Source: Flexivirga aerilata (GTDB taxonomy: Bacteria; Actinomycetota; Actinomycetes; Actinomycetales; Dermatophilaceae). Taken from it: a DNA stretch of 64,000 nt. The translations under genes were made by a program, and so were the position numbers. Position 1 is the stretch's first letter; each line of letters starts with the position of its first letter. The notes under the pieces are model-generated. The model did no database searches and was not told the origin of the DNA. It saw only the letters and a list, made by a program, of their open reading frames with translations. This document shows, one piece after another, positions 37,066-40,530 of the stretch. The stretch is taken from the NCBI RefSeq assembly GCF_013002715.1, contig NZ_JABENB010000001.1, positions 1,922,001 through 1,986,000 on the forward strand, written 5' to 3'.

Positions 37066-40000
37066 ATGGCCTACCCCAAGGTCGACCTGACGTCCGAGCA
37101 GCCACACGGCGTGGCCCCGAGCGCCAACTTCCCCGACATCGAGGTCGCGGTGCTGAAGTACTGGGACGCCGACGGCACCTTCCGGGACTCGGTCGAACAG
37201 CGCGACGCCGGCAAGGACGGCGACAACGAGTTCGTCTTCTACGACGGGCCGCCCTTCGCCAACGGCCTGCCGCACTACGGTCACCTGCTCACCGGCTACG
37301 TCAAGGACCTCATCCCGCGCTACCAGACGATGCGCGGCAAGCGCGTCGAGCGCCGCTTCGGCTGGGACACCCACGGGCTGCCCGCCGAACTCGAGGCGAT
37401 GAAGCAGCTCGGCCTCAAGACCAAGGACGAGATCCTCGACATGGGGGTCGACAAGTTCAACGCGGCTGCGCGCGACTCGGTGCTGCGCTACACCCAGGAG
37501 TGGCGCGACTACGTCAACCGGATGGGCCGCTGGGTCGACTTCGACGGCGACTACAAGACGCTCGACCCCGACTTCATGGAGTCGGTGCTCTGGGCCTTCA
37601 AGAAGCTGTATGACGAGGGCCTCGTCTACGAGGGCTTCCGGGTGCTGCCCTACTGCTGGAACGACGAGACCCCGCTGTCCAACCACGAGCTGCGCATGGA
37701 CGACGACGTCTACCAGATGCGGCAGGACCCGGCGGTCACCGTCGGATTCACAGCAACGAGTGGGCAACTCGCCGGTGCGAAGCTGCTGATCTGGACGACC
37801 ACGCCGTGGACGCTGCCGTCCAACCTGGCGGTCATGGTGCGGCCCGACATCGACTATGTCGTGGTGGAGAGCGACCTGCCGACCGGCAAGCCCGAGCGTT
37901 ACGTGCTCGCCGAGGCGCGGGTTGCGGCATACGCCAAGGAGCTCTTCGGCGACGCATCAGCCGACTGGCAGGAGCACGTGGTGCAGCGGCTCACCGGAGC
38001 CGACCTGCTCGGCACCACCTACGCGCCGCCGTTCACCTACTACGAGGGTCACGAGGGCGCGTTCCGGGTCGTCGAGGCCGACTTCGTCACCACCGGCGAC
38101 GGCACCGGGCTGGTGCACAGCGCCGGCGCGTTCGGTGAGGAGGACATGGAGGTCACTGACCGCGAGGGCATCGCGCCGGTGATCCCGGTCGGCCCCGACG
38201 GGAAGTTCACCTTCCCGGTCACCGAGTACGAAGGCATGCAGGTCTTCGACGCCAACCCGCACATCATCGACGACCTCAAGGCGGCCACCAACGCCGCCAC
38301 CGATGCTGGTCGAGTAGCGGAGGAGCGCAGCGGGGGAGCGTATCGAGACCAGGCCGCTGGTCGAGACCAGGTCGCTGGTCCAGACCAGGTCGCTGGTCTC
38401 GATACGGCCTCCGCTAGCGCTCCGGCCTACTCGACCAGCGAGGGCAGCGCTCCGGCCTACTCGACCAACTCGGCGGGGTCGGTCACTCCGGGCACCGTGC
38501 TGCTGCGGCGCGAGACCTACGACCACTCCTACCCGCACTGCTGGCGGTGCCGTAACCCGCTGATCTACATGGCGGTGTCCTCGTGGTTCGTGCAGGTCAC
38601 CAAGTTCAAGGACCGCATGCTCGCGCACAACCAGGAGATCAACTGGGTGCCGGGCAACGTCCGCGACGGGCAGTTCGGCAAGTGGCTGGAGAACGCCCGC
38701 GACTGGTCGATCTCGCGAAACCGCTTCTGGGGCAGCCCGATTCCGGTGTGGAAGTCGGACAACCCGGAGTTCCCGCGGGTCGACGTCTACGGCTCGTTCG
38801 CCGAGCTGGAGCGCGACTTCGGCGTCACGGTCGACGACCTGCACCGTCCCGGCGTCGACCAGCTCACCCGGCCCAACCCCGACGACCCGAGCGGGAAGTC
38901 GACGATGCGCCGCGTCGAGGACGTGCTCGACGTGTGGTTCGACTCCGGGTCGATGCCGTACGGCCAGGTGCACTACCCCTTCGAGAACTCCGACTGGTTC
39001 GAGCACCACTTCCCGGCCGACTTCATCGTCGAATACATCGGGCAGACCCGCGGCTGGTTCTACATGCTGCACATCCTGTCGACCGCGCTCTTCGACAAGC
39101 CGGCCTTCAAGAACGTCATCTGCCACGGCATCGTGCTCGGCTCCGACGGACAGAAGATGTCCAAGTCGCTGCGCAACTACCCGGACGTCACCGAGGTGTT
39201 CCACCGCGACGGCGCCGACGCGATGCGCTGGTTCCTGATGAGCAGCCCGATCCTGCGCGGCGGCAACCTGGTCGTCACCGAGCAGGGCATCCGCGACGGC
39301 GTGCGTCAGGTGCTGATGCCGCTGTGGAGCAGCTGGTACTTCTTCAGCCTCTACGCCAATGCCGCTGGTGCCGAAGGCCATTGGTCGACCGACTCGACCA
39401 ACGTCATGGACCGCTACATCCTCGCCAAGACCCGCGAACTGGTCGAGACCGTGCAGCGCGACCTCGACGAGTTCGATGTGGCCGACGCCTGCGACGCGGT
39501 GCAGTCCTTCCTCGACGTGCTGACCAACTGGTACATCCGCCGCTCCCGCGAACGCTTCTGGGCGCAAGGGGGCGTCGACGCCGACAACCAGGCCGCCTTC
39601 GACACGCTCTACACCGTGCTCGAGGTGACCTGCCGGGTTGCCGCACCGCTGCTGCCCTTCGTCACCGAGCAGGTATGGCGGGGGCTCACCGGCGGCCGGT
39701 CCGTGCACCTGACCGACTGGCCCGTCGCCGCGGACCTGCCCGCCGACAGCGGCCTCGTCGAGGCGATGGACCGCGCCCGTGCGGTGTGCTCGACGACGCT
39801 GTCGGTGCGCAAGGCCGAGCAGCTGCGGGTGCGGTTGCCCCTCGCCGGGCTGACCGTGGTGACCGCCGACGCCGACAAGCTCGCTCCCTTCACCGGGCTG
39901 ATCTCCGACGAGGTCAACGTGCGCGAGGTGCGGCTGGTCGACGTGGCGGACGCCGGCGAGTCCGACTTCGGCGTGACCACCAAGCTGACCGTCAACGCCC

Positions 40001-40530
40001 GTGCCGCCGGACCGCGCCTCGGCAAGGACGTGCAGCAGGCGATCAAGGGCAGCAAGAGCGGCGACTGGTCGGTCGCCGAGGACGGCACCGTGACCAGCGG
40101 CGGCCTGCAGCTGCAGGACGGCGAATACGTCCTGGAGACAGTCGTTTCGGACGAGGCGCGCGCGGGCCAGGTGCCCGCGATGCTGCCCGGCGGCGGTTTC
40201 GTCGTACTCGACACAGAGGTCACCGACGAACTGCGCGCCGAGGGCCTGGCCCGTGACGTGATCCGTGCCGTGCAGCAGGCCCGGCGCGCCGCCGATCTCG
40301 ACGTCAGCGACCGGATCAGCCTCGGCGTCGCCGGTGACGACGAGGTCTGGCAGGCGACCGTGGCCCACCAGGAACTGATCATGCGCGAGACCCTCGCGGT
40401 GCAGTTCGGGTCGGCCGGTGCCGGCCACGACCTGCCGGGTGGCACGCTCGCCGACCTCGGTGGCGGGAAGAAGGTCACCATCACCGTCAAGCGGGTGGCC
40501 CCGCGAGCCGCGACCGAACAGGGGGCCTGA
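37066..40530 (+). CDS. ileS: Isoleucyl-tRNA synthetase with internal repeat-derived insertion
   Basis: 1154 aa from the ATG after the T-box. HIGH-type motif GLPHYGH (about 67-73), CP1 editing domain (about 190-400), WCF-region SSWFVQV, KMSKS at about 697-701, and the eukaryotic-like C-terminal domain of the type 2 IleRS (mupirocin-insensitive class in many actinobacteria). Between the editing domain and [24 protein letters not shown], residues ~414-467 are foreign: a low-complexity stretch ([28 protein letters not shown]) encoded by a nested inverted repeat, in frame, with no stop. The motifs on both sides are intact, so the enzyme is probably functional with an extra surface loop. Confidence 0.95.
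38305..38467 (+). mobile_element. REP-like nested palindrome inserted in ileS
   Basis: Outer arms GCTGGTCGAGTAG (38305-38317) / CTACTCGACCAGC (38427-38439) and inner arms GTATCGAGACCAG (38340-38352) / CTGGTCTCGATAC (38393-38405), both perfect 13-bp pairs. The core is built of CGAGACCAG/CTGGTC repeats. The outer-to-outer length is 135 bp, exactly 45 codons. A 22-bp segment (38416-38437, AGCGCTCCGGCCTACTCGAC + CA) repeats at 38446-38467, giving a 10-residue tandem repeat in the protein. It resembles the extragenic REP/BIME-type elements common in high-GC actinobacteria, here in coding sequence. Confidence 0.8.

Follow-up and report, generated by a model that had tools for sequence, protein, structure and literature searches.

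How does a palindromic repeat come to lie in frame inside an essential gene? The gene in question is ileS of Flexivirga aerilata, which, like dnaX and purL discussed below, is presumably essential. It lies in the window (the whole stretch of 64,000 nt that we analysed) and encodes an isoleucyl-tRNA synthetase (IleRS) that is probably of the type-2 (eukaryote-like) form; a genus-wide search found one full-length ileS match in this genome. The insert at 38305-38467 is a REP-like pair arranged head-to-head (A minus, B plus), with a spacer of 18-nt repeats, followed by a copy of a half unit. The features, in window coordinates, are:

37066-40530, plus strand: ileS, isoleucyl-tRNA synthetase, 1154 aa
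38281-38493, plus strand: IleRS variable loop, residues 406-476 (71 aa), after IIDDLK, where the editing domain ends, and before the next conserved motif
38305-38352, minus strand: REP-like unit of type A, core CTCCCCCGCTGCGCTCCTCCG
38305-38317, plus strand: outer inverted-repeat arm, pairing with 38427-38439 (13 bp, perfect)
38308-38466, plus strand: IleRS residues 415-467, the sole internal stretch (at least 3 residues) with pLDDT < 50
38339-38352, plus strand: inner inverted-repeat arm, pairing with 38393-38406 (14 bp, perfect)
38343-38396, plus strand: three 18-nt tandem copies joining the A and B units (100, 94 and 89% identity to the first copy)
38392-38439, plus strand: REP-like unit of type B, core GCCTCCGCTAGCGCTCCGGC
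38446-38467, plus strand: duplicated half unit, 22 nt, 100% identical to 38416-38437

An earlier note on this DNA had described a REP-like element in frame within ileS, and that description stands. Remeasurement returned the same span of 135 bp for the palindromic region and the same perfect 13-bp outer arms; the inner arms, given in the note as 13 bp, are 14 bp long. Rather than the single 135-bp element proposed there, the region consists of two inverted units of ~48 bp and the spacer of 18-nt repeats. Its length does equal 45 codons as noted, but the match is incidental: relative to F. meconopsidis, the net insert is 62 codons (a loop of 71 versus 9 residues). The 22-nt direct copy was found again at 38416-38437 and 38446-38467 with 100% identity, and the reading frame indeed runs open through the insert, with no stop codon and with the motifs on both flanks intact; the loop is predicted to be translated.

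When folded as single-stranded DNA, the 135-nt insert gave -60.3 kcal/mol, compared with -29.2 +/- 3.2 kcal/mol for shuffled sequences (z -9.7; none of 200 shuffles as low). The single units folded no better than their shuffles (z 0.0 and -1.0). Used as a query against its own 4.0-Mb genome, the insert returned 114 matches; the insert is one of them, and overlapping matches from either strand are counted. Because it recurs at this number and folds below every shuffle, the repeat in ileS is not a chance arrangement. The only Rfam matches at the insert were animal miRNA hairpins, all under the gathering score, which we take as chance. The type A unit shares 51 identical nt (38300-38350) with a stretch within dnaX of the same genome, and the type B unit 50 identical nt (38392-38441) with a stretch within an AftD-like gene. 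All five Flexivirga genomes searched contained matches to the insert, with between 29 and 114 each.

To define the repeat unit, 38 distinct units were aligned. The unit is an imperfect palindrome of 44-52 nt, CTGGTCTCGATACG - core - CTACTCGACCAG, with several alternative cores. In 36 of the 38, the inner hairpin has the tetranucleotide GTAG at its foot when the opposite strand is read; further complementary arms enclose the GTAG, which is therefore not at the palindrome's very end. RNAalifold on the MAFFT alignment of the units predicted no pairs; the outer stem was named by hand afterwards, and the unit model (R1) is for this reason built on sequence only. Pairing in this stem holds in 96.2% of cells, and 23 cells are changed on both sides, a number that none of 500 shuffles reached (5.5 +/- 1.9). 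Neither of two further counts was in excess: pairs in which both sides had changed (3 versus 2.7 in shuffles; 325 of 500 as high) and further pair types (4 versus 5.7, i.e. fewer than by chance). As the stem was designated from the very units on which it was counted, and the units are related, we read the covariation as support to which no probability is attached.

A search of the genome with the unit model gave 155 matches. Among the matches listed, 123 units were retained in 60 clusters, half-unit matches being left out; seven of these clusters consist of weak matches alone (E > 1e-6). Single units make up 35 of the 60 clusters. Where neighbouring units lie < 150 bp apart, 48 of 58 are in opposite orientation. 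The family thus has the high copy number and short palindrome of REPs, with units that exceed the 20-40 bp of the definition, and it forms inverted dimers of which most are intergenic, if the 52 of 60 clusters without an open frame common to both flanks are taken as such. At five of the 52 (L157, L177, L186, L187 and L207) the two flanks agree in their best coding frame, but that frame is not open through the element; these may be broken genes or chance.

The site of the insert in the protein was examined by structure prediction. AlphaFold2 with 93 aligned sequences gave a model of IleRS with a mean pLDDT of 82.7 (a run with 23 close sequences gave a poor model, pLDDT 51, and was set aside). 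The only internal stretch of at least 3 residues with pLDDT < 50 is residues 415-467, which is nearly exactly the repeat-encoded part. The tolerated surface loop that the earlier note had offered as one explanation agrees with this predicted disorder. A fold search returned, among the matches listed, class I synthetases, as expected. Sequence alignment with two relatives of solved structure leaves just 3 residues unaligned at the insert, between 382 and 386 of 8wnd_A and between 384 and 388 of 9w01_B, which places the insert in a short turn.

We compared the same loop across relatives in an alignment of 203 IleRS rows, in which three genomes occur twice. P0003 was left out; this 2230-aa metagenome protein has an IleRS match plus an extra tRNA-synt_1e domain. 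The loop is 14-15 aa long in 162 of the 203 rows and at least 30 aa in 11 rows, which represent 10 genomes or proteins. In two of these long loops (P0023 and P0030) no repeat was identified, nor in other species with moderately longer loops of 17-33 aa. The nearest proteins are from Flexivirga, family Dermacoccaceae. IleRS of F. meconopsidis is 97% identical to that of the window and has a 9-aa loop without the insert, and the DNA flanking the loop is 94.2-95.7% identical between the two. F. caeni also has an empty 9-aa loop. A second close pair of filled and empty alleles is L114 and P0006, with 95.3% IleRS identity. The species assignments rest on 100% protein identity for F. meconopsidis (genome G003; L113 = P0002) and F. 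caeni (G001; L115 = P0008), and F. endophytica was matched to G002, where L031 and L112 are identical.

Filled loops were of more than one kind. Peptides like those of the A and B units were seen by eye in F. lutea (P0004), P0005, P0007 and genome G004 (L114). The F. endophytica loop carries a different kind of element, with ends GACGAAGT; that genome matches it 45 times (including the insert), once within the span of dnaX. In Nocardioides donggukensis, of the Nocardioidaceae, the loop contains four tandem copies of that species' own half palindrome, with 20 genome matches including the insert; similar-looking inserts are present in N. agariphilus (L100) and P0009. By eye, a second IleRS loop of F. 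caeni (L115) holds an in-frame palindrome that resembles the F. endophytica kind, and P0007 has a peptide similar to that encoded by this second-loop palindrome. On a tree of 25 IleRS rows the state of the insert changed at least 5 times, gains and losses not being separable; the count includes the P0023 insert, which was not identified as a REP.

Other genes carry the element in frame too. All 60 cluster loci were tested by codon usage, trained on 30 genes of the window, and six had the same coding frame on both flanks, open through the element: ileS, dnaX, purL, an AftD-like gene, an FhaA-like gene and a maltokinase/GlgB frame. Examination by eye of five further loci added the N-termini of NuoE (nuoE) and of one gene without a known name. 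The total is thus eight of 60 clusters, the last two less surely, as a later start codon would leave the element outside the protein. In all six non-ileS frames with Pfam matches (AftD, DnaX, FhaA, PurL, maltokinase/GlgB and NuoE), the element is placed between Pfam domains or next to them; in maltokinase/GlgB it lies at the junction and may fall between two genes. At that locus (L192), maltokinase and GlgB share one open frame and are joined by tandem half elements, either a fusion made by the repeats or two adjacent genes. At L176, an open frame without a Pfam match has three REP units in its N-terminal part.

The dnaX gene has in-frame elements in all five Flexivirga genomes. In G004 (L143) there are four successive REP pairs in frame, with plus units spaced 189, 147 and 147 bp; these pairs lengthen the part of DnaX after domain III. 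At one site in purL (L184, L212, L211), an element is present both in the F. aerilata genome and in F. caeni, in different frames, which argues for separate insertions; G004 has a degenerate copy there (by eye), and F. meconopsidis and F. endophytica are empty. According to the earlier note, it is extremely rare for extragenic elements of this kind to occupy an essential gene. The dnaX and purL cases contradict this, as do PMC3733652 and PMC10969869. At the peptide level, a search with the ileS element against proteins of 635-2020 aa found itself and an AftD homologue of the same genome (E 4e-4); a match to F. caeni dnaX (E 4.6) is not significant alone and was confirmed only at the DNA level. 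Proteins of 220-700 aa gave no match. Gene-borne units tended to have other gene-borne units as nearest relatives, but this post hoc test is weak, with 94 of 2000 permutations as high; it covered 117 of the 123 units and 56 of the 60 clusters, long weak matches having been dropped.

Very probably, then, a REP-like pair entered ileS and was retained since the frame was kept and only a disordered hydrophilic loop was added at a permissive turn. The element would have arrived through dispersal, or else through recombination with a copy elsewhere, and would then have lengthened as half units and 18-mers slipped. Insertions that were out of frame or caused misfolding would be removed by selection, and the turn that links the editing domain to the catalytic core would be a permissive site. 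The same process may have produced the elements in dnaX, purL and the other genes, and no benefit to the IleRS protein would be required. The earlier note posed a tolerated loop and a moving, frame-filtered element as alternatives; we hold movement or exchange and loop tolerance together.

A different history would have a single ancient insertion in the Flexivirga ancestor that was remodelled by repeat exchange and repeatedly lost, with no recent movement into ileS. This has a real chance of being correct, somewhat short of even. Its plausibility comes from the A/B-like plus units of P0001, P0004, P0005, P0007 and L114, which by eye share a single frame and orientation and read GLDT or nearly so. 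The 9-aa loops of the empty Flexivirga alleles, shorter than the usual 14-15 aa, can also be read as deletion scars. Against such a history stand the other kinds of element in the same loop of F. endophytica and N. donggukensis, and the different frames of the purL elements in F. aerilata and F. caeni. The 25-row tree adds its changes of state to the objections, but is silent on whether these were gains or losses.

The earlier note had suggested looking for a RAYT-type transposase; a profile search for the Y1 transposase family PF01797 found none in this genome (control matches were obtained in five of 14 genomes), and only one of 59 genomes of the family contains it. With PF01797 absent, RAYT was rejected as the mobiliser here. 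A gene of ~600-650 aa is present in seven copies, with ~81-85% nt identity over the longest aligned pieces, two of them frameshifted:

L156/L157, L160/L161, L170/L171, L177/L178, L189/L190, L200/L201 and L205, in the same genome, outside the window: seven copies of an HNH-like gene

REPs flank six of the copies on both sides and the seventh on one, whole or partial copies occur at 13 of the 60 fetched REP loci, and homology among the copies stops within ~200 bp of the REPs. It is conceivable, albeit unlikely, that this family, with its weak DUF222/HNH similarity, supplies the spreading nuclease in place of RAYT. The association is biased by selection because the loci read were REP loci only, and copies without REPs would escape such a set. 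The HNH Pfam scores (14.2-17.3, cut-off 21.4) were below threshold in all four copies tested at a looser setting, and DUF222 reached 23.0 (cut-off 24.4) in one of the seven. The gene was absent from the 22 REP loci of two other genomes (11 of N. donggukensis, 11 of F. endophytica), two copies are frameshifted, and the genes may be passengers. The REP13E12/DUF222-HNH repeats of Mycobacterium, named in PMC10589994, are likewise a multi-copy HNH-like gene that is regarded as a repeat; the Flexivirga copies differ in scoring below cut-off and in being flanked by REPs, and kinship is only suggested. More speculatively, and with similarly low expectation, GTAG palindromes mobilised by this REP-flanked family, as in an analogue of a REPtron, might repeatedly enter fixed permissive linkers of essential proteins. 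If so, IleRS, DnaX and PurL would be a running record of element activity.

That the repetitive peptide is instead a functional IleRS extension, selected for the protein, we consider very improbable. Loop length does vary among actinobacteria and the encoded peptides are hydrophilic in appearance, but the insert is missing in F. meconopsidis and F. caeni, its DNA is identical over 50-51 nt to unrelated genes, and disorder is predicted. A sequencing or assembly artefact is scarcely credible: hairpins can trouble assembly, but the frame is preserved, related inserts occur in the same loop of several other genomes, and the insert lies on a 2.5-Mb contig.

Entry of a REP-like pair into a permissive loop of ileS can be set beside known systems. 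BIMEs are inverted clusters of REP units; the Flexivirga clusters are alike, but some are also found in frame within genes, and one dnaX has four pairs in a row. Ogata reportedly described Rickettsia palindromic elements (RPEs) in 2000 and 2002. PMC10969869 and PMC3733652 describe RPEs as in-frame palindromic insertions in protein genes, which is the arrangement in Flexivirga (ileS, dnaX, purL and others). The likeness is by description only: the Flexivirga unit is a ~48-bp hairpin with a GTAG foot, other genes are hit, and eight of 60 clusters are in frame, whereas in R. conorii close to half of the RPEs are. GTAG REPs, as PMC3733652 presents them, share the GTAG at the hairpin foot, the inverted dimers and an occasional position within ORFs, including those of tRNA synthetases; two Xanthomonas species have one in recB at roughly the same position. 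They differ in that the Flexivirga genome lacks RAYT, the arms here are complementary beyond the GTAG, and a single ileS loop has received distinct repeat families in two families of bacteria. The Flexivirga repeats are intragenic REPs, most like RPEs. What is new, as far as the cited papers go, is an actinobacterial family without RAYT, its load in core genes, and the occupation of one ileS loop by different families in two bacterial families. Among open-access full texts we found no paper that treats REP sequences, RAYT and Actinobacteria together, or REPs, Nocardioides and transposase together, although the family may still have been published.

According to a recent review (PMC10969869), palindromic elements in frame are exceptionally common in Rickettsia, and a role elsewhere is no more than conceivable. 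Here an actinobacterium shows in-frame palindromes in core genes of replication, translation and purine synthesis, which raises the question of what spreads such repeats where RAYT is absent. Since close relatives include both filled and empty alleles of ileS, tolerance, gain and loss are directly testable. The repeats resemble selfish DNA, which proteins put up with in the form of floppy loops, and loop insertions in essential enzymes may accordingly be mobile DNA rather than adaptation.
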